DNA of 41,464 nt from a virus, in the IMG/VR virus record IMGVR_UViG_3300049927_000002, positions 1-41,464 of that record; one strand, written 5' to 3'. Of this stretch, positions 8,527-36,300 are shown one piece after another. The translations under genes were made by a program, and so were the position numbers. The notes beneath the pieces were generated by a model. It was not told where the DNA came from. It saw only the letters and a list, made by a program, of their open reading frames with translations, and did not search any database. The number at the start of each line of letters is the position of its first letter. The stretch's first letter is position 1.

Positions 8527-9492
8527 CTACGCTCCAGCGTGGATAGAGCTGGTAGTCTCAGTGCGAATCAGAGCCTCAGGACGGTACAGAGACCATCCTG
8601 CTACACCGTACCAGCCAAGAGGCTGGAAGCGGGTCAGCTTGTCAACGACTGGACCGCGAACGGTGTGGAACTCTTCAGCAACGGCCTCAGCCAGTGCCTG
8701 CTGACCTACGGTGTAGGTCTGGAATACGCGAACAGTTCCACCAGCACCAGTCAGAGCAGAGTTTACGCGAGGAGTCTCGATGAAGACACTTCCCTCGTAC
8801 TCTCCGATCTCTCCGGCCCAGATGTTTCCTGCTGCGCTGTAGTTGTGCGGATCACGCCACGCTGCCGAACCAGTCTCGGCACGGAGGTCATGAGAAACCT
8901 CTGGAGAGATGTACGTGGTGTAGAAGCTACCCTTGTTCGGGTGAACCTTCTGAACGCGCAGCTTGGCTACTGCAAGACGTACGGCCTTGGAGCTGTAGAT
9001 AGATGCGGTAGTTACGCCAGCGGTAGTACCACCGTTGTACGTAGGTGCGACAGTAGCTGGGTCACCGTTCTGACGGATGACCTGAGTACCAGTCTGCAGA
9101 ACATTCTGAACAACAAGGTCAACGGAGTCCACAAGGTTCCATGCAACCTGGTTGACAAGGCCAGCAGTCACGTCAGTGAAGCTGAACAGGTCAAGCTTGT
9201 TGGAAACCAGGATCGAGTTACCGTACTCGTTCAGAGTTACGGAGATGGTAGTCGGGTTACCTGCCGCTACAGCGTCAGGATCGACCAGCTCGTTGAGCGG
9301 GGTGATTGCCTGTGCGAGATCCTGGTAGATCTCGAACACGACACTGGAGCCAGGCATTGCCTGCTGAACAGGTCGCTTGTCGGCGACCTGGCGGAACGTG
9401 GGCTGAGCGCGCAGAGCGAACTCAAGAGCCCTGTCATACGTGGTCTGTACGAGGTTTGCCATCGCGGCAGTACCCGTGAAGGCGTTAGCCAA
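8527..9492 (-). CDS. major capsid protein, N4-gp56-like
   Basis: 321 aa with recognisable HK97-fold capsid features of the N4-gp56 group: N-terminal YDRALEFALRAQPTFRQVAD, KRPVQQAMPGSSVVFEIYQD, TLNEYGNSILVSNKLDLF and a C-terminal domain with FHTVRGPVVDKLTRF. I chose TTG 9492 because it gives MANAFTGT, the usual start of relatives; ATG 9462 is an alternative. The AGGATG ribosome site lies in a 6-bp hairpin (9502-9516). It follows the scaffold gene as expected. Confidence 0.9.
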   Translation of the reverse strand: MANAFTGTAAMANLVQTTYDRALEFALRAQPTFRQVADKRPVQQAMPGSSVVFEIYQDLAQAITPLNELVDPDAVAAGNPTTISVTLNEYGNSILVSNKLDLFSFTDVTAGLVNQVAWNLVDSVDLVVQNVLQTGTQVIRQNGDPATVAPTYNGGTTAGVTTASIYSSKAVRLAVAKLRVQKVHPNKGSFYTTYISPEVSHDLRAETGSAAWRDPHNYSAAGNIWAGEIGEYEGSVFIETPRVNSALTGAGGTVRVFQTYTVGQQALAEAVAEEFHTVRGPVVDKLTRFQPLGWYGVAGWSLYRPEALIRTETTSSIHAGA

Positions 9493-9524: not shown

Positions 9525-10001
9525 CTAATGTAGCCGCGCCATGTTGGCGATAAGGCCCTGAATGTCAGTAGCATCGTTGACCGCAGCCTGAGCAAGTTCC
9601 ATGGATCCTAGTGGATTTCCACTCTGACCGGCTTCATTGAGCCTCTGGAACTGTGCGGCAGCGTCGCCCGTAAGAACGGGCGCTGGGTCAACTGAATTGG
9701 GAACAGATGGCGTTCCCTGCGATCCGAATGCTGTCTTCATAGTAGTTACCCACTCCTGAATCTTTGCCGGATCTGCGTCACCCTGATACAGCGGAGCTGC
9801 GGCAGGAACGCCTAGTGATTCAAAAACTCCGCTAACCTTAGTAGCTCGCAGATCCTGCTGGATAGTGGCCAGACTAGCCGCAAGATCTTTGTTCTGCTGC
9901 TGAAGTGCGGTGTATGCATCGCGAAGTGCCTTGGGCCCGCTGCTTGCGCTGTCGTTGGCCTGGCCTGCGTTGTCGTTGTCGTCGAATCCCCAATTAGTCA
10001 C
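9525..10001 (-). CDS. scaffolding protein
   Basis: 158 aa, acidic and polar, with a helical segment rich in Gln/Leu (residues ~27-52, ALRDAYTALQQQNKDLAASL) typical of a coiled coil, a flexible Pro/Ser middle and a short helical C-terminus. Scaffolds guide capsid assembly and leave before DNA packaging. The assignment rests on composition and its place immediately before the major capsid gene. Confidence 0.7.
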   Translation of the reverse strand: MTNWGFDDNDNAGQANDSASSGPKALRDAYTALQQQNKDLAASLATIQQDLRATKVSGVFESLGVPAAAPLYQGDADPAKIQEWVTTMKTAFGSQGTPSVPNSVDPAPVLTGDAAAQFQRLNEAGQSGNPLGSMELAQAAVNDATDIQGLIANMARLH

Positions 10002-10030
10002 TTGAACTCCTAGTTAGATGTGAACGCCAA

Positions 10031-10057
10031 AAGCCACGACCTAGGGGATCGTGGCTT
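10031..10057 (-). terminator. terminator-like hairpin after the tRNA array
   Basis: 9-bp stem AAGCCACGA (10031-10039) with TCGTGGCTT (10049-10057). On the minus strand it is followed by TTTTGG. It lies between the last tRNA (ends 10119) and the scaffold gene, so it could define the 3' end of the tRNA transcript while some transcription continues into the capsid genes. 10058-10118 holds nothing I recognise. Confidence 0.55.
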
Positions 10058-10118
10058 CGCTCGTTCGAATGGTTGCCAGTCTTCACTACGATACAGCCTG
10101 CTGGCTTGGGCGTATCGG

Positions 10119-10189
10119 TACCCCGTGACAGAATCGAACTGCCGTAGCCGGTTTGTAGGACCGGCGTTCTCCCATTGAACTAACAGGGC
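10119..10189 (-). tRNA. tRNA-Val (UAC), C33 variant
   Basis: Full cloverleaf: 7-bp acceptor GCCCTGT/ACGGGGT with G-U pairs, D-arm GTTC/GAAC, anticodon stem CCGGT/ACCGG, T-arm GGCAG/CTGTC around TTCGATT. The loop CCTACAA puts C at position 33, where U is nearly universal; the D-arm looks glycine-like. Isotype is read from the anticodon only. Confidence 0.7.
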
Positions 10190-10190
10190 A

Positions 10191-10257
10191 TAGCCTCACT
10201 CGGAGTCGAACCGAGCCTTTGACCTTAGGAGAGTCAAGTCTATCCGCTAGTGAAGCA
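10191..10257 (-). tRNA. tRNA-Arg (CCU), short D-arm
   Basis: Anticodon arm TGACT/GGTCA with loop CTCCTAA, T-arm CTCGG/CCGAG around TTCGACT. Acceptor pairs at six of seven positions (1-72 is T-T), and the D region is unusually short, so total length is only about 67. Might be a degraded gene. Confidence 0.6.
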
Positions 10258-10258
10258 G

Positions 10259-10330
10259 CTCTTCAGGCAGGGATCGAACCTGCGATACCGGAGTTAACAG
10301 CTCCGTGCCGTACCACTTGGCTACTGAAGA
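10259..10330 (-). tRNA. tRNA-Asn (GUU)
   Basis: Acceptor TCTTCAG/CTGAAGA pairs fully, anticodon stem CGGAG/CTCCG with loop CTGTTAA, T-arm GCAGG/CCTGC. Discriminator G. Canonical. Confidence 0.9.
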
Positions 10331-10333
10331 ATA

Positions 10334-10380
10334 GCTAGGTTTCCGGTAGCGCCCACCTAGCGCAGACATCTTTGGCTACC
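10334..10380 (-). other. intergenic interleaved hairpins (possible pseudoknot)
   Basis: GCTAGGT (10334-10340) pairs with ACCTAGC (10355-10361), while GGTAGC (10345-10350) pairs with GCTACC (10375-10380). The two stems interleave, so they are either alternatives or a pseudoknot. It fills the gap between tRNA-Asn and tRNA-Thr; it may be a processing element or a tRNA relic. Confidence 0.35.
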
Positions 10381-10386
10381 ACTGCG

Positions 10387-10459
10387 AGCCCCACGAAGGA
10401 ATCGAACCCTCATCTGATGATTACTAAACACCGGCTCTAATCCGTTGAGCTAGCGGGGC
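10387..10459 (-). tRNA. tRNA-Thr (AGU)
   Basis: Acceptor GCCCCGC/GTGGGGC, D-arm GCTC/GAGC, T-arm GAGGG/CCTTC. Loop TTAGTAA gives anticodon AGU. The closing pair of the anticodon stem is T-T, and the A34 anticodon is unusual for bacterial Thr. Isotype from anticodon only. Confidence 0.65.
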
Positions 10460-10469
10460 AAGTTGAGCA

Positions 10470-10489
10470 GTGGCCCCCTGAAGGGCCAC
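10470..10489 (-). terminator. hairpin inside the tRNA array
   Basis: Stem GTGGCCC (10470-10476) with GGGCCAC (10483-10489), loop CCTGAA, in the 77-base gap between tRNA-Lys and tRNA-Thr. No T-tract on the minus strand, so a processing or stability element is as likely as a terminator. Confidence 0.45.
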
Positions 10490-10536
10490 CCATCATCTCC
10501 CGCCACTTAAGGCTGGACAGAGATGAAGCTGCTCAG

Positions 10537-10611
10537 TGTTCCGGGTGGGATTCGAACCCACGTTCACAAGGATTAAGAGTCCCTTGCACTACCAGGCTGT
10601 GCGACCGGAGC
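10537..10611 (-). tRNA. tRNA-Lys (CUU)
   Basis: D-arm GCAC/GTGC, anticodon stem AGGGA/TCCTT with loop CTCTTAA, T-arm GTGGG/CCCAC. Acceptor GCTCCGG/CCGGAAC has one C-A mismatch at 2-71. Confidence 0.85.
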
Positions 10612-10612
10612 G

Positions 10613-10684
10613 TGTTCCATGAGGGATTCGAACCCCCATCAGAGCCTTCGTAGGACCCTGTCCTATCCATTGGACGAATGGAAC
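10613..10684 (-). tRNA. tRNA-Arg (ACG)
   Basis: Acceptor GTTCCAT/ATGGAAC, D-arm GTCC/GGAC, anticodon loop CTACGAA, T-arm GGGGG/CCCTC. A34 would be converted to inosine by host TadA, the normal bacterial situation for this tRNA. Confidence 0.9.
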
Positions 10685-10686
10685 GG

Positions 10687-10757
10687 GGTGACCAGTGGGA
10701 ATCGAACCCACGTCAAGAGGGACACAACCTCTTGTTCTACCATTGAACCATGGTCAC
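10687..10757 (-). tRNA. tRNA-His (GUG)
   Basis: Acceptor GTGACCA/TGGTCAC, D-arm GTTC/GAAC, anticodon stem AGAGG/CCTCT with loop TTGTGTC, T-arm GTGGG/CCCAC, discriminator C as expected for His. Confidence 0.9.
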
Positions 10758-10759
10758 AG

Positions 10760-10831
10760 CAGCCTGTGTAGGGATCGAACCTACGCGCACCGGGTTTCAA
10801 CCGGATGCTCTTCCGACTGAGCTAACAGACT
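10760..10831 (-). tRNA. tRNA-Phe (GAA)
   Basis: Acceptor AGTCTGT/ACAGGCT, D-arm GCTC/GAGC, loop TTGAAAC, T-arm GTAGG/CCTAC. Outermost anticodon-stem pair is T-T. The 68 bases between it and tRNA-Glu (10832-10899) hold only a CCACG/CGTGG hairpin. Confidence 0.85.
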
Positions 10832-10899
10832 ATGAAGCGTTTGGCACCACGACCGCGAGGTTGCCGTGGATCAGAGACATCAGTAGCTTCCCTCTGTCG

Positions 10900-10972
10900 T
10901 ACTCCATGAGGGGATTGAACCCTCACCTTCCGGGTGAGAACCGGATGTCCAGAACCACTAGACGAATGGAGC
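10900..10972 (-). tRNA. tRNA-Glu (CUC)
   Basis: Acceptor GCTCCAT/ATGGAGT, D-arm with GTC/GGAC typical of Glu, anticodon stem TCCGG/CCGGA with loop TTCTCAC, T-arm GAGGG/CCCTC. Confidence 0.9.
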
Positions 10973-10977
10973 AAGAG

Positions 10978-11050
10978 TACAGCAGGTGGGATTCGAACCC
11001 ACGTCTTGCAGGGTCTAAGCCTGTTGCCTCGGCCGTTGGGCTACTGCTGC
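10978..11050 (-). tRNA. tRNA-Leu (UAG), short variable arm
   Basis: Acceptor GCAGCAG/CTGCTGT, loop CTTAGAC, T-arm GTGGG/CCCAC. Leucine tRNAs are normally class II with a long variable arm, but here the variable region is only about five bases. Either an unusual phage tRNA-Leu or a non-standard identity. Confidence 0.65.
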
Positions 11051-11051
11051 G

Positions 11052-11124
11052 CGAATCTGAAGGGAGTCGAACCCTCTACCACTACCGTGACAAGGTAGCG
11101 CTCTAACCGATGAGCTACAGATCC
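11052..11124 (-). tRNA. tRNA-Asp (GUC)
   Basis: Acceptor GGATCTG/CAGATTC, D-arm GCTC/GAGC, anticodon stem CTACC/GGTAG with loop TTGTCAC, T-arm GAGGG/CCCTT. Discriminator G. Confidence 0.9.
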
Positions 11125-11128
11125 AGAG

Positions 11129-11200
11129 TAGGGAAGGAAGGAGTCGAACCTTCGTCACCGCTTTATCAGAGCAATGCACTAACCGTTGTGCTACATCCCA
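11129..11200 (-). tRNA. tRNA-Ile (GAU)
   Basis: D-arm GCAC/GTGC, anticodon stem TTGCT/AGCGG with loop CTGATAA, T-arm GAAGG/CCTTC. Acceptor TGGGATG/CTTCCCT has mismatches at 1-72 and 6-67, so charging efficiency is doubtful. Confidence 0.75.
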
Positions 11201-11201
11201 G

Positions 11202-11273
11202 TGGACAATGAGAGATTCGAACTCTCGCTAGCTGCGTGCAAAACAGCCGTGCTACCGTTAACACTAATCGCCC
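11202..11273 (-). tRNA. tRNA-Ala (UGC)
   Basis: Acceptor GGGCGAT/ATTGTCC includes G-U wobble pairs but no mismatch. D-arm GTGT/GCAC, anticodon stem GCTGT/GCAGC with loop TTTGCAC, T-arm GAGAG/CTCTC. Confidence 0.9.
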
Positions 11274-11275
11274 AG

Positions 11276-11343
11276 AAACCGCGCCGGATTCGAACCGGGT
11301 CTCTCGTGTTGCAGACGAGATCCGCACCAAGCGGATCACGATC
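11276..11343 (-). tRNA. tRNA-Cys (GCA)
   Basis: Acceptor GATCGTG/CGCGGTT, D-arm CCGC/GCGG closing a tight loop TTGGT, anticodon stem CTCGT/ACGAG with loop CTGCAAC. T-stem is effectively four pairs. Short but recognisable. Confidence 0.8.
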
Positions 11344-11344
11344 G

Positions 11345-11423
11345 TGAGTCGTCTAGGAATCGCACCTAGCGTGTCGCAATGACGCAGGGGTTACAGCCCC
11401 GCTTGTGCACTAGCACCCAACCC
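11345..11423 (-). tRNA. tRNA-Tyr (GUA), class II
   Basis: Loop CTGTAAC, a long variable arm (GTC ATTGC GAC) and T-arm CTAGG/CCTAG. The T-loop begins TGCG rather than TTCG. Acceptor has a mismatch at 7-66. The 58 bases to the next tRNA (11424-11481) contain nothing I recognise. Confidence 0.85.
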
Positions 11424-11481
11424 AAGTGATGAACTTCTTGCCGACCTCTAGCTAGTCAAGGTACTCATCTGCGGCAACAAG

Positions 11482-11559
11482 CGGAAAGGTGAGGAATCGA
11501 ACCCCGACCCGAAGGACAGTTGACTAGCAATCAACCTGGACACCATGTCCAACCAATCC
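11482..11559 (-). tRNA. tRNA-Ser (GCU), class II
   Basis: Anticodon stem GTTGA/TCAAC with loop TTGCTAG, long variable arm, T-loop TTCGATT. Acceptor GGATTGG/CCTTTCC has two internal T-T mismatches (4-69 and 5-68). Confidence 0.8.
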
Positions 11560-11561
11560 AG

Positions 11562-11642
11562 AGGAAAGTAGAGGAGTCGAACCCCTAGCCAAGGCTAGCA
11601 CGGTTTTCTAGACCGCTTACCCACCATCGGGTGCTACCTTCC
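11562..11642 (-). tRNA. tRNA-Ser (AGA), class II
   Basis: Acceptor GGAAGGT/ACTTTCC pairs (with a G-U), anticodon stem GCGGT/ACCGT with loop CTAGAAA, variable arm GCTAGCC/GGCTAG, T-arm GGGG/CCTC. An A34 serine tRNA is unusual in bacteria. Confidence 0.8.
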
Positions 11643-11646
11643 AAAG

Positions 11647-11718
11647 CTGCTCCTCAAGGATTCGAACCTCGTACGGGTGGTTCAGAGCCACCTGTGTTAC
11701 CGATTACACCAAGAAGCA
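11647..11718 (-). tRNA. tRNA-Gln (CUG)
   Basis: Acceptor TGCTTCT/AGGAGCA, D-arm GTGT/ACAC, anticodon stem GGTGG/CCACC with loop CTCTGAA, T-arm CGAGG/CCTTG. Canonical. Confidence 0.9.
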
Positions 11719-11722
11719 TTGG

Positions 11723-11793
11723 CAAAGGTCGAGGGATTCGAACCCTCACGGTACGGTTTTGGAGACCGACCGACACAACCTACGCTGACCAAT
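11723..11793 (-). tRNA. tRNA-Trp (CCA)
   Basis: Anticodon arm CGGT/ACCG with loop CTCCAAA, T-arm GAGGG/CCCTC. Acceptor ATTGGTC/GACCTTT is mismatched at 2-71 and 3-70 and the D-arm is weak, so it may be functionally impaired. Confidence 0.75.
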
Positions 11794-11794
11794 A

Positions 11795-11865
11795 TGGCTA
11801 GGCTGGGAATCGAACCCAGAGTTCAGGCTTATGAGGCCCACGTGTTACCGTTACACTACCCAGCA
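11795..11865 (-). tRNA. tRNA-Met (CAU)
   Basis: D-arm GTGT/ACAC, anticodon stem TGGGC/GCCTG with loop CTCATAA, T-arm CTGGG/CCCAG. Position 1-72 is an unpaired T-C, as in initiators, but the anticodon stem lacks the three consecutive G-C pairs of initiator tRNA. Could also be Ile2 after lysidine modification. Confidence 0.8.
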
Positions 11866-11866
11866 G

Positions 11867-11937
11867 AGCCTCACGCCAGGTTCGAACTGGCGAGACCTGT
11901 TTGGAAGACAGGTATGTTACCACTACATCAGTGAGGC
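11867..11937 (-). tRNA. tRNA-Gly (UCC)
   Basis: Acceptor GCCTCAC/GTGAGGC, anticodon stem CCTGT/ACAGG with loop CTTCCAA, T-arm GCCAG/CTGGC. Canonical. Confidence 0.9.
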
Positions 11938-11941
11938 AAAG

Positions 11942-12013
11942 TCTGATAGGAGAGAATCGAACTCCCAGCTTCCTACTCCCAAAGCAGGCGGGCGGCCATT
12001 GCCCATCTATCAG
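11942..12013 (-). tRNA. tRNA-Pro (UGG)
   Basis: Acceptor CTGATAG/CTATCAG, D-arm GGGC/GCCC, anticodon stem CCTGC/GTAGG with loop TTTGGGA, T-arm GGGAG/CTCTC. First tRNA to be transcribed in the array. Confidence 0.9.
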
Positions 12014-12016
12014 ATA

Positions 12017-12038
12017 GTCTGGCCCTTAGGGGCCAGAC
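12017..12038 (-). terminator. hairpin between gene block and tRNA array
   Basis: 9-bp stem GTCTGGCCC (12017-12025) with GGGCCAGAC (12030-12038), loop TTAG. It separates the 342-aa gene from the first tRNA. No T-tract on the minus strand, so it could be an RNA-processing hairpin that frees the tRNA precursor. Confidence 0.5.
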
Positions 12039-12056: not shown

Positions 12057-13085
12057 TTACCTTGCTCCACCACTCTGCGCAAGTCCATTCTTTGCAGCTC
12101 CGGCAGATCCGCTGAATGCACCCTGTTCAGAGCTGATCAGCCTACGCTTCTGTTCTGCTGCAGTATTGAGCCCTTCAAACTGAGCCTGTTCGGCAGCTCG
12201 CTGACTCCACTGTCCGCCATAGATTCCACTCAGTCCGATTAGACTTCCATACTCCTTGCCGATCTGAGAGTATCCAGCAGCAGCCTGATCCCTGGTGACT
12301 CCCTGAGTAGCTAGGGTGTCGGAGTAGTTCTGATCGAACTTGAGACCCTGTCGTAGCGCTTCGCCTCCGATGGCAGCGGTCGCTGCTGCCTTCTGAATGA
12401 TCGGAAGGCTCTTATCCTTATCAAGGAAGTAGGCAGTCATCTCGGAGTCAGACAGTCCCATGGCATTGAGGGCTTGCTTGTACATAGGGTTAGCAAGGAT
12501 CGTCGCCTGGGTGGCTAGGTCCACACGCTTCTGTACTTCTGTCGGGCTTACGTCTCCACTGATCCAAGCAGTAAAGTCTGCTGGAGTGTCGTAGAACCCC
12601 ATGGGCAGACCAGACTGCCTCATGATCTGACGATAGCTGGATTCGGTTGACAGATACTCGGCCGGAGACAGAACAGGAAGACCAGCCTTCTGCCGTGCGG
12701 TATTCGCTGCGAACCTCTGCTTGTACTCGGTCGTGTCTTGCAGCAGAACGCTGATCGTGTCTGAACTATAGCCGTTCTTCACGAAGTCAAAGATCTTACC
12801 AGCAAGAGTTCCCAGACCATACTGACTGAATAGGCTGTTCAGGGCCATGTAGGCGTCGCGACTAGCTCCTGTAAGGAGCTTGTCGTACTGGCCAGACTTC
12901 TCGTACACCTGGTTCTGTGTAGAGGTTCGCTTGCCAGTGATGTCCTCGATCTGCCTCTGAAGTATGATCTTACTGTTGGCATTCATGTTCTTGTTCTTGA
13001 GCTGATTGTTCAGCACGGCAAGCTGAGAGTCGTACAGCTTGAGCTGAACGTTTAGCGCAGCAGTCTGGTCTACTGGTGTGGTCAT
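12057..13085 (-). CDS. internal virion / structural protein (342 aa)
   Basis: Strong AGGAG before ATG 13085. The N-terminal ~60 residues are a Gln/Asn/Lys-rich coiled-coil (LYDSQLAVLNNQLKNKNMN); the middle contains helical stretches with DTPADFTAWISGDVSPTEVQ; the C-terminus is Gly/Ala/Ser-rich. It follows the two hydrolase genes and precedes the tRNAs. The predominantly helical, extended character fits a protein ejected with the DNA, but I recognise no family. Confidence 0.5.
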   Translation of the reverse strand: MTTPVDQTAALNVQLKLYDSQLAVLNNQLKNKNMNANSKIILQRQIEDITGKRTSTQNQVYEKSGQYDKLLTGASRDAYMALNSLFSQYGLGTLAGKIFDFVKNGYSSDTISVLLQDTTEYKQRFAANTARQKAGLPVLSPAEYLSTESSYRQIMRQSGLPMGFYDTPADFTAWISGDVSPTEVQKRVDLATQATILANPMYKQALNAMGLSDSEMTAYFLDKDKSLPIIQKAAATAAIGGEALRQGLKFDQNYSDTLATQGVTRDQAAAGYSQIGKEYGSLIGLSGIYGGQWSQRAAEQAQFEGLNTAAEQKRRLISSEQGAFSGSAGAAKNGLAQSGGAR

Positions 13086-32481: not shown

Positions 32482-33027
32482 GTGGAATTCACGTTTGACT
32501 CGCCCTACAACGCTGGCGAGGCCATCAGGATCGACCTTAAGGCGGTTGAGCAAGAGCTTGGCGACGGCACATGGGAAACCTTGTCATCGGCCATCATGCT
32601 CAAGATCTCCGCATGGTCCGTAGCGTGGAGCAACACGATTGCGAGCGTAGACCCTGGAGACCTGCTGATTGATGGCGTGGATATTGCCATCAGCACAAAT
32701 GGTGACTGGATCGTCGAGCTTGCTCAACTGTTCACATACCTCAACGACCTGCCACGCTACCAGGAGCCTGACGTCTATCTGGCATACCTGAATGGCAACG
32801 GATGGGGCTGGTCAGACTTCGACAACATCGATGACTGGACGGATGAGTTTTACAGCGAATATCCCGACGACCTGGACGACTATGGTCGGGAACGTATGAG
32901 CGAGTCAGAGTTTGCCCTTCCGGATCACCTGGAAGCGTACTTCGACTACGCACAGTACGCCGAGGACAGTCTCGACGAGCTCAACAAGTACAAGTGGAAC
33001 GGAACAGAGTATCTGTTCAGTTCGTAG
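32482..33027 (+). CDS. ArdA-like antirestriction protein
   Basis: 181 aa, strongly acidic. The central PDVYLAYLNGNGWGWSDF, the Asp/Glu-rich middle (FYSEYPDDLDDYG) and the C-terminal LPDHLEAYFDYAQYAEDSLD match the ArdA pattern (a YxDYxxYxxDL-like motif near the end). ArdA dimers mimic DNA and block type I restriction enzymes. GTG 32482 preceded by AGGGAGAAGCA. Unlike the neighbours it lacks the full switch leader. Confidence 0.7.
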   Translation: MEFTFDSPYNAGEAIRIDLKAVEQELGDGTWETLSSAIMLKISAWSVAWSNTIASVDPGDLLIDGVDIAISTNGDWIVELAQLFTYLNDLPRYQEPDVYLAYLNGNGWGWSDFDNIDDWTDEFYSEYPDDLDDYGRERMSESEFALPDHLEAYFDYAQYAEDSLDELNKYKWNGTEYLFSS

Positions 33028-35625: not shown

Positions 35626-36300
35626 CTATCCATCCCACTGAGTTGATACTGCCGCCCTCATGGCCGCATTAGTCCTCACAACCCGCTTCTGCGGGCTTCT
35701 ATCTTCGTCAGGCTCCCTGCGTCCAAGGGTGGTCTGTACGGCCGCTACGGCCCTCTCTGAGCGCTTCCTGGCGGCATCCTCACTGATCTCAAGAGTCTCG
35801 CCGATCATTGCATGCGTCCAATGGAGCTTGAAGCCCCACACCAGGACGTTGTAAGCATCGTCGGCAAGCTTTGAGACTGCGTTCTTCACGTCGATCAGTT
35901 CAGCGATTCGATCGCCAGTCTGATTGGCCTGAGCCTTCCGTCCTGGCTGGCCGTCACCATGAAGCCCGAAGGACTGCCAGCTCTCGTAGTCAAAGGCATC
36001 TGGAAGCAGAGTCTTGATCTTCGGGATGCTGTACTTGAAGAGATCGTCTGGCGAGTAGCCTTCAGCGGCAGCACGTTCCGCGTTGCAGTGGTCAAAGGCC
36101 ACCTTGCGCATGATGCGAGAGATCCCAGCTTCCCAGGAAGCCTCCTCCATCTGCTGCTCGATCCAGACCTTCTTGCTATAGATCCACACGTACAGAGCGC
36201 CAGAAGTGTCAGCGGCAGTGACATACGAGGGGAAGTTCTTGCTGACACTTCTGGCTGTACGCTCGACGATGGGCATGAGAACTGCGGGATCAAGGGGCAT
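35626..36300 (-). CDS. sigma-like / HTH DNA-binding protein (224 aa)
   Basis: The C-terminal half (YNVLVWGFKLHWTHAMIGET followed by LEISEDAARKRSERAVAAVQ) has the shape of sigma-70 region 4 or a related HTH. The N-terminal half is helical with SRIMRKVAFDHCNAERAAA, plausible as a divergent region 2. Similar genes occur in actinophages. Could direct host RNA polymerase to phage promoters; a plain DNA-binding role is possible. Follows the phosphoesterase with no spacer. Confidence 0.6.
   Translation of the reverse strand: MPLDPAVLMPIVERTARSVSKNFPSYVTAADTSGALYVWIYSKKVWIEQQMEEASWEAGISRIMRKVAFDHCNAERAAAEGYSPDDLFKYSIPKIKTLLPDAFDYESWQSFGLHGDGQPGRKAQANQTGDRIAELIDVKNAVSKLADDAYNVLVWGFKLHWTHAMIGETLEISEDAARKRSERAVAAVQTTLGRREPDEDRSPQKRVVRTNAAMRAAVSTQWDG

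Follow-up and report, generated by a model that had tools for sequence, protein, structure and literature searches.

The tRNA array

The window, by which we mean the whole 41,464-nucleotide stretch of DNA analysed here (IMG/VR record IMGVR_UViG_3300049927_000002), belongs to a Beephvirinae (cluster BF) Streptomyces phage and carries, on the minus strand at 10117-12013, an array of 22 tRNA genes in which every one of the 20 amino acids is represented (Table 1). ARAGORN called 20 of the 22, all on the minus strand within these limits. The two without a call, Tyr-GTA (11344-11423) and Trp-CCA (11720-11793), lie where the initial annotation had placed them; both genes are annotated in the corresponding slots of relatives' arrays, from which the window copies differ by acceptor-stem and T-stem substitutions that are mostly compensatory, and the acceptor pair 7-66 of tRNA-Trp covaries among relatives. 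The Rfam tRNA gathering score is passed by 16 of the array tRNAs, with E-values from 6e-12 to 2.6e-7. For both Ser tRNAs and Trp the sole Rfam match is a sub-threshold one to the tRNA-Sec model, and Arg-CCT, Cys and Tyr have no match to the tRNA model (RF00005) even at E <= 1; these six are supported by ARAGORN, synteny and relatives, and not by the gathering score. In the Tyr tRNA of the window the T-loop is unusual (U55 to G), and this tRNA may be weakened. A chance origin of the array is excluded, because the identical set occupies the equivalent place in many relatives. The initial claim, 22 tRNAs that leave no amino acid out and include a pair for Arg and a pair for Ser, is borne out, 20 genes by ARAGORN and Tyr and Trp from relatives.

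Table 1. Features of the array and its flanks, in window coordinates
Feature	Position	Strand	Evidence or remark
Major capsid protein	8527..9492	-	PHROG 1357
Scaffolding-like gene downstream of array	9525..10001	-	PHROG 7813; scaffolding protein annotated in Dennebes
Strong hairpin, downstream side of array, without T-run	10022..10066	-	Fold z -5.59
tRNA-Val (TAC)	10117..10189	-	ARAGORN; Rfam 59.3 bits
tRNA-Arg (CCT)	10191..10260	-	ARAGORN; no RF00005 match at E <= 1; same gene annotated in Dennebes
tRNA-Asn (GTT)	10258..10330	-	ARAGORN; Rfam 62.3 bits
tRNA-Thr (AGT), A34 anticodon not in S. scabiei	10386..10459	-	ARAGORN; Rfam; S. scabiei comparison
Structured 76-nt spacer between Lys and Thr, three-way junction	10460..10535	-	Fold z -3.54
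tRNA-Lys (CTT)	10536..10611	-	ARAGORN; Rfam
tRNA-Arg (ACG)	10612..10684	-	ARAGORN; Rfam
tRNA-His (GTG)	10685..10757	-	ARAGORN; Rfam
tRNA-Phe (GAA)	10759..10831	-	ARAGORN; Rfam
tRNA-Glu (CTC)	10899..10972	-	ARAGORN; Rfam
tRNA-Leu (TAG), class I, short variable loop, A73	10977..11050	-	ARAGORN; Rfam; relatives' sequences
tRNA-Asp (GTC)	11051..11124	-	ARAGORN; Rfam
tRNA-Ile (GAT)	11128..11200	-	ARAGORN; Rfam
tRNA-Ala (TGC)	11201..11273	-	ARAGORN; Rfam
tRNA-Cys (GCA)	11275..11343	-	ARAGORN; no RF00005 match at E <= 1
tRNA-Tyr (GTA), T-loop U55 to G	11344..11423	-	Homology to annotated tRNA-Tyr in equivalent slot; cloverleaf-like fold; no ARAGORN call
tRNA-Ser (GCT)	11481..11559	-	ARAGORN; tRNA-Sec model 25.2 bits, below cut-off
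tRNA-Ser (AGA), A34 anticodon not in S. scabiei	11561..11642	-	ARAGORN; tRNA-Sec model 36.2 bits, below cut-off
tRNA-Gln (CTG)	11646..11718	-	ARAGORN; Rfam
tRNA-Trp (CCA), G73, encoded CCA	11720..11793	-	FlowerPower tRNA-Trp in equivalent slot, 91% identity; no ARAGORN call
tRNA-Met (CAT)	11795..11865	-	ARAGORN; Rfam
tRNA-Gly (TCC)	11866..11937	-	ARAGORN; Rfam
tRNA-Pro (TGG)	11941..12013	-	ARAGORN; Rfam
9-bp hairpin, upstream side of array, without T-run	12017..12038	-	Fold z -2.78
gp13 orthologue, conserved late gene upstream of array	12057..13085	-	PHROG 8424; synteny

At about 11.6 tRNAs per kb (22 in 1.9 kb), the array is a viral tRNA gene cluster under the published definition of at least 15 tRNA genes and at least 2 per kb; the clusters in that survey, from genomes of 72-617 kb, hold roughly 2-10 tRNAs per kb (PMC6409571), while a cultured BF genome measures about 45 kb. 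All 20 amino acids are likewise covered by the 56 tRNAs of Xanthomonas phage XacN1, which match codons commoner in the phage than in its host (PMC5852040), but XacN1 is a jumbo phage, whereas the window, from a phage of the 45-kb class, holds about one gene per amino acid. The Leu tRNAs of S. scabiei are all long and the phage Leu-TAG has a short variable loop; a short-armed tRNA-Leu was rejected as a novelty, tRNA-Leu genes similar in both sequence and span being annotated in mycobacteriophages, cyanophage P-RSM6, and Cellulophaga and Myxococcus phages. The spacer between Lys and Thr is absent in the nearest relative, L013, where the two genes adjoin. At 10557-10677 a YrlA match was dismissed, being an artefact that the adjoining Arg and Lys genes produce.

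Related phages with and without the array

The capsid protein of the window is 80-91% identical to those of cultured BF members, and the placement of the array between gp13 and the scaffold and capsid genes, on the late strand, is common to the window and its BF relatives. All 22 window anticodons recur in Dennebes (OR253913), WRightOn, Treat and Immanuel3, and the array type is one already known from BF Streptomyces phages. The likeness to the arrays of Dennebes, FlowerPower, Immanuel3 and WRightOn lies in this placement and in the anticodon set; the window differs in the positions of Lys and Glu and has Pro and Gly without the intervening gap in which most relatives hold a permuted tRNA-like cassette, and its tRNAs are individually 60-92% identical to those of four cultured relatives. 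The anticodon set is nearly constant across three array architectures with scrambled gene order, while tRNA bodies in the same slot diverge strongly (Trp, for example, has at least four), a combination that gives good support to the earlier suggestion that one of each isotype was selected. The array of L068 has an additional Ser-CGA, and that of Abafar comprises 14 tRNAs only, a point against the decoding-set reading proposed below.

Relatives compared at the capsid locus are bimodal, with either 0-3 tRNAs in a gap of 0.16-0.61 kb or 14-24 tRNAs in 1.4-2.4 kb. Presence of the array is clustered on the capsid tree, with at least seven switches between presence and absence, a count that recombination in this tree could mislead. 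The existence of relatives with and without the array at the same locus amounts to a natural experiment, which is the new element of this analysis. No gene exclusive to array-bearing phages made a convincing partner, the best being a 77-aa gene present in four of five genomes with the array and one of eight without; a Pfam scan of ten early ORFs of the window found ArdA and a PD-(D/E)XK/Cas4-like nuclease, but neither a deaminase nor any ligase or nuclease of tRNA.

Codon use and the array

Codon use was compared between 36 loci with the array and 49 without. The late-gene codons that are enriched with the array are cognate to its tRNAs (CTA, CCA, GGA, GCA, GTA, ACT, CGT and TCT); in each four-codon box the most enriched codon is the cognate one, and CTA is the most strongly enriched of all, which would imply leucine charging of the short-armed Leu-TAG. 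Codons that the array cannot read (CGG, TTG, AAA, ATA, CAA and AGA) are depleted, and unreadable codons in total amount to 2.6% with the array versus 6.4% without. The ratio A/(A+U) in Val, Pro, Ala, Gly and Leu is 0.466 with the array and 0.277 without (p=1.7e-14), and U/(A+U) in Ser, Thr and Arg is 0.825 and 0.693, respectively (p=1.8e-11); as these shifts run in opposite directions, each in line with the U34 or A34 anticodons concerned, a GC effect does not account for them. With the capsid tree as phylogeny, PGLS upholds the association for cognate codons (p=2e-13), unreadable codons (p=1e-8) and CGG (p=7e-8), while for GAG the phylogenetically corrected effect falls short of significance (p=0.096). 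At five supported independent array changes, A/(A+U) follows the array in essentially every pairing, the sign test on the starred branches having a floor of p=0.0625. Variation within arrays (the Ser-CGA of L068; arrays without a called Arg-CCT) does not clearly track codon use, in part because Arg-CCT, Trp and Tyr genes lying in gaps escape ARAGORN.

One account of these shifts would be simple codon compensation, in which the tRNAs merely top up codons rare in a GC-rich host whose own pool remains fully usable. Such compensation has been published for the capsid gene of BF phages (PMC9753666), the array-favoured codons are rare in the host (0.2-8%), and strong over-expression of phage tRNAs without loss of the host pool could yield part of the pattern. 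However, about half of the tRNAs serve codons that the host reads well (Lys-CTT, Glu-CTC, Gln-CTG, Phe, Asp and others), and codons that are abundant in the host and supplied by it are purged: CGG, which makes up 38% of host Arg codons and is read by the host's own Arg-CCG tRNA, falls from 15.8% of Arg codons without the array to 2.3% with it, and TCG and ACG are depleted as well, to a far smaller extent. We therefore consider topping up, taken by itself, rather unlikely. Codon supply, as proposed in the initial annotation, is strongly supported; it applies to late genes specifically and exceeds the topping up of rare codons, because codons unreadable by the set are also removed.

The specificity for late genes emerged from early and late classes built from homology-defined genes; calling by longest ORF or strand blocks was dropped, since the many spurious ORFs that entered it made the classes noisy. 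CGG per Arg declines from early to late genes in all five array-bearing genomes (from.218 to.033 in FlowerPower and from.137 to.049 in the window) and is approximately flat in the eight genomes without the array (exact p=0.0016), while the early genes of the two groups show no difference (p=0.35 and 0.22). In the genomes checked, the codon shift is confined to late genes. A neutral or hitch-hiking cassette, maintained by recombination while codon use simply follows lineage or host, is a highly improbable reading of the array: its presence is indeed clustered on the tree, but the similarity of the early genes, the agreement of opposite A and U shifts with the anticodons and the persistence of the codon effect under PGLS largely contradict this reading.

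Proposed role of the array

We consider it probable that the array is a near-minimal phage decoding set which, from within the capsid and tail operon, supplies most of the tRNA for late virion-protein synthesis. The set, a single tRNA for each amino acid except for the doubled Arg and Ser, would probably be transcribed within the late transcript and processed by host RNases, with host enzymes adding CCA and charging the phage tRNAs. By the late phase the host tRNA pool may be diluted, not replenished or degraded, and codons read by host tRNAs only (CGG, TTG, CAA, AAA, AGA and ATA) would thereby become costly, while early genes, translated with host tRNAs, would keep host-readable codons. Each of the U34 tRNAs (Val, Pro, Ala, Gly and Leu) probably serves its entire four-codon box, and if so, 95.0% of the late codons of the window are readable. 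GAA is a clear exception, accounting for 41% of Glu in the window though unreadable by Glu-CTC. C-ending codons in the U34 families are still common (GTC is about 40% of Val), so that, unless U34 reads all four codons, some host tRNA persists; together with GAA use, they argue against full decoding autonomy. It is a tentative and somewhat doubtful extension that late decoding is nearly autonomous and mitochondrion-like, with the host pool effectively lost, unreadable codons purged, an efficiently leucylated short-armed class I tRNA-Leu, an inosine-bearing Arg-ACG, and Ser-AGA and Thr-AGT with A34 left unmodified. Unmodified A34 is suggested by the depletion of TCA and ACA but not of CGA with the array, and by the much larger drop of CGG than of TCG and ACG.

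The late-gene pattern is best read as fitting the published "all-destructive infection" idea, rather than defence alone, as late genes that fit the phage tRNA pool and early genes that do not are what was found here. Two features are shared with the cases discussed under that model, the vibriophage of Yang et al. 2021 and Shigella phage Sf14 (26 tRNAs, 19 amino acids): the tRNA set is large, and it is the late genes that agree most closely with the phage tRNA pool (PMC12482277). In those cases phage and host were compared, whereas here the comparison is between relatives with and without the array, and unreadable codons are purged only with it; host tRNA loss is part of the model, whereas for the window phage we only infer it.

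Full isotype coverage had also been linked at the outset to protection against tRNA-cleaving defences. The set would then replace host tRNAs that anticodon nucleases or another defence directed at tRNA had cleaved, and altered anticodon loops would resist cleavage. A proposal of this kind covers phage tRNAs at large (PMC10264068), and the same role has been suggested for those of the relative Abafar (PMC11536984); an unpredictable target would suit a complete set. As in the mycobacteriophage C1 cluster, for which escape from anticodon nucleases has been hypothesized (van den Berg et al. 2023), a dense actinobacterial-phage cluster has many host-differing loops: 12 of 20 comparable window loops differ from those of S. 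scabiei, which may not be the phage's host. The other 8 are identical, however, cleavage by a host enzyme is hypothetical here, and in none of 61 Streptomyces genomes did PrrC/RloC (PF13166) score above its cut-off; moreover, a host-limited defence should not rewrite late genes across the clade yet spare early genes. Protection may coexist with codon supply, but alone it leaves the late-gene-only signature unexplained, and as the principal explanation it is quite unlikely.

The reason why phages carry tRNAs has been debated for decades, and this locus offers a clean contrast, among close relatives, between presence and absence of an array. Taken with the contrast between early and late genes, it argues for a set that dominates late decoding and is not just a supplement for rare codons, an idea that cultured BF phages such as Immanuel3, Manuel and Abafar, which are grown on common laboratory strains of Streptomyces, make directly testable.

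The tRNA array and its occurrence among relatives

The array is real, and arrays of its kind are known. ARAGORN detects 20 tRNA genes. For tRNA-Tyr and tRNA-Trp, relatives have annotated counterparts at the same array positions, and comparison shows most stem pairs to be kept through paired changes; the initial annotation of 22 genes serving all 20 amino acids is thereby borne out. Covariance models uphold part of the set: 16 window tRNAs pass the Rfam threshold, and the other six, which do not, are supported by ARAGORN, synteny and homology. The tRNA-Tyr has G in place of U55 in its T-loop and may be weak. A further 76 nt fold (z -3.54) into a three-way junction closed by a tRNA-like stem; this element, which the nearest relative (L013) lacks, could be the remnant of a tRNA or a different small RNA cassette.

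The proteins of the window, a virus record of 41,464 bases, match those of Streptomyces podoviruses of the Beephvirinae (actinobacteriophage cluster BF), and the cultured members compared carry 14 to 23 tRNAs each by ARAGORN, nearly all at the same place. The 22 anticodons at the array position of Dennebes are identical to the window's, with an additional, separate Leu-GAG. Abafar lacks eight tRNAs (Met, Trp, Gln, both Ser, Tyr, Cys and Asp) in what looks like a recent block deletion, yet its late genes keep the codon use of an array-bearing phage.

The comparison set was built from capsid homologues in IMG/VR and GenBank, whose loci have gp13, the array (where present), scaffold and capsid in the same order. 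Among the 77 loci with both flanks present, the gap spans either 159-611 bases with 0-3 tRNAs (47 loci; array-) or 1416-2441 bases with 14-24 tRNAs (30 loci; array+), and no intermediate sizes or counts occur. On the capsid tree the array state switches at least seven times. Two relatives close to the window by capsid sequence (91% identity), L015 and L016, contain tRNA-Pro only, in a 387-base gap, and represent natural array deletions or a never-gained state. Genes are arranged in three different orders among the arrays, while the anticodon set hardly varies. At the Trp position, several tRNA bodies of dissimilar sequence share one anticodon and G73; since anticodons are kept despite these differences, selection appears to act on the set and not on particular genes or their order, in agreement with the earlier proposal that one of each was selected.

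Codon usage in late and early genes

The codon comparison covered late genes from 36 array+ and 49 array- loci. With the array, A/(A+U) reaches 0.466 in the Val, Pro, Ala, Gly and Leu boxes, against 0.277 without it; the corresponding U/(A+U) values for Ser, Thr and Arg are 0.825 and 0.693. These shifts run in opposite base directions, matching the prediction from the U34 and A34 anticodons (34 being the first anticodon base), which rules out GC content as their cause. The largest rise in each four-codon box is that of the cognate codon (log2 change: CTA +1.52, CCA +1.16, GGA +1.02, GCA +0.85, GTA +0.64, ACT +0.59, CGT +0.57, TCT +0.44), and codons that no array tRNA reads fall (TTG -2.69, CGG -2.56, AAA -2.43, ATA -2.42, CAA -2.21, AGA -2.07, GAA -1.45, TCG -0.85, ACG -0.52). 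Phylogenetic regression retains the effects for cognate codons (p=2e-13), unreadable codons (p=1e-8) and CGG (p=7e-8), but not for GAG (p=0.096), and across five supported independent array changes A/(A+U) tracks the array in essentially every pairing. Simple compensation for host supply would not be expected to produce avoidance of CGG, ACG and TCG, because S. scabiei, the stand-in host for tRNA and codon comparison, has Arg-CCG, Thr-CGT and Ser-CGA among its 44 anticodons and uses these codons heavily (38%, 37% and 31% of their families); yet all three fall in array+ late genes.

Early and late annotated genes of FlowerPower differ in CGG (.208/.033), TTG (.041/.002), CAA (.054/.000), CCA (.036/.220) and GGA (.097/.258), and values for Dennebes are similar. 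With genes defined by homology, the late-early change in CGG, and likewise that in cognate codons, separates all five array+ genomes, window included, from all eight array- genomes (exact p=0.0016 each). Host differences between the groups could also shift codon use, but early genes show no difference between array+ and array- genomes, which argues against that cause.

The footprint also bears on individual tRNAs. Because TCA and ACA fall with the array and CGA does not, and because the drop in CGG far exceeds those in TCG and ACG, the pattern fits inosine in Arg-ACG and plain A34 in Ser-AGA and Thr-AGT, two anticodons absent from S. scabiei. The window's Leu-TAG has a short variable loop, whereas all S. 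scabiei Leu tRNAs have long ones, and a D-arm of leucine type by comparison with E. coli tRNA-Leu; enrichment of CTA with the array implies that it is probably leucylated. The short form is not new, since annotations of other phages include tRNA-Leu genes like it.

Other elements in and around the arrays

Relatives' arrays contain further elements. A 244-nt unannotated element, which the window lacks, occupies varying slots (Asp-Leu, Glu-Phe, Leu-Phe, Leu-Lys). When nine copies are folded together, 77 pairs form, 16 of them changed on both sides, with few breaks. The FlowerPower copy had no convincing match in an Rfam scan and BLAST matches are confined to Streptomyces phages, and the element looks like an undescribed structured RNA. 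A second element, also absent from the window, is a tRNA-like cassette in circularly permuted form, made up of T-arm, closed acceptor stem and D-arm, with a covarying outer stem (double changes in 9 of 15 pairs); it resembles YrlA (Y RNA-like), yet scores below the Rfam cut-off. One 81-base tmRNA match (58.2 bits, cut-off 47) takes in the two termini of the model and looks like a tmRNA that has lost its tag-coding part.

Coordinates of features in the window and in relatives (L-numbers)
Feature	Location	Strand	Remarks
tRNA genes	window 10117-12013	minus	20 by ARAGORN
tRNA-Tyr	window 11344-11423	minus	beyond ARAGORN's 20
tRNA-Trp	window 11720-11793	minus	beyond ARAGORN's 20
76-nt element	window 10460-10535
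ArdA-like gene	window 32482-33027		Pfam ArdA, 31.4 bits
Sigma-factor-like protein	window 35626-36300		PHROG 354, E=4e-17
Abafar array	L106:1049-2294
244-nt element	L093:17252-17495; L014:4078-4321; L023:4359-4601; L024:4434-4676; L094:17257-17499; L098:2109-2350; L099:2530-2773; L100:2008-2251; L101:1942-2185
Permuted cassette	L100:1084-1166; L105:1113-1198; L093:16058-16148		Pro-Gly slot
Permuted cassette	L020:3729-3811; L068:4947-5027		further copies
tmRNA match	L020:4849-4929		Arg-Lys gap
65-nt conserved hairpin-like element	L105:2403-2467		Arg-ACG/Lys-CTT interval; same slot in L017, L014, L096, L098, L099, L052, L054, L102
Small ORF, apparently coding	L014:5046-5290; L019:928-1168; L096:2609-2787; L098:3025-3203		between tRNA-Asn and Arg-CCT/Val genes in four relatives

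Proposed late supply of tRNAs

Lying on the late strand, the array follows gp13 by 43 bases and precedes scaffold by 115. A scan found no sigma-70-like site above chance; for these reasons the array is likely co-transcribed with the late genes. The sigma-factor-like protein, kept in all 13 genomes compared, is a candidate for driving late transcription.

The initial annotation named both codon supply and protection against host tRNA-cutting systems as fitting roles. Codon supply gains support from the array-linked late codon shift. Of 20 comparable anticodon loops, 12 differ from those of S. scabiei and eight match, and PrrC/RloC-type proteins exceed the cut-off in none of 61 Streptomyces genomes; a defence benefit, for instance against other tRNA-cutting systems, may still exist. 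Elsewhere, the window carries an ArdA-like antirestriction gene with homologues in FlowerPower and Dennebes.

Most likely the array works by late supply. Early proteins would be decoded by host tRNAs; late transcription would then yield array RNA, host enzymes would process and charge its tRNAs, and, with the host pool diluted, destroyed or no longer renewed, phage tRNAs would come to dominate and do most of the decoding of virion proteins. Provided that U34 reads whole boxes, array tRNAs could read 95.0% of the late codons in the window. GAA makes up 41% of Glu codons in the window and C-ending four-box codons persist, and both argue against full autonomy in late decoding. The scheme corresponds to what Yang et al. 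called "all-destructive infection", as described in PMC12482277, and array-less relatives here support that idea in another lineage. What is new is the comparative evidence from codon use, which opens the late-supply model to tests on cultured phages.
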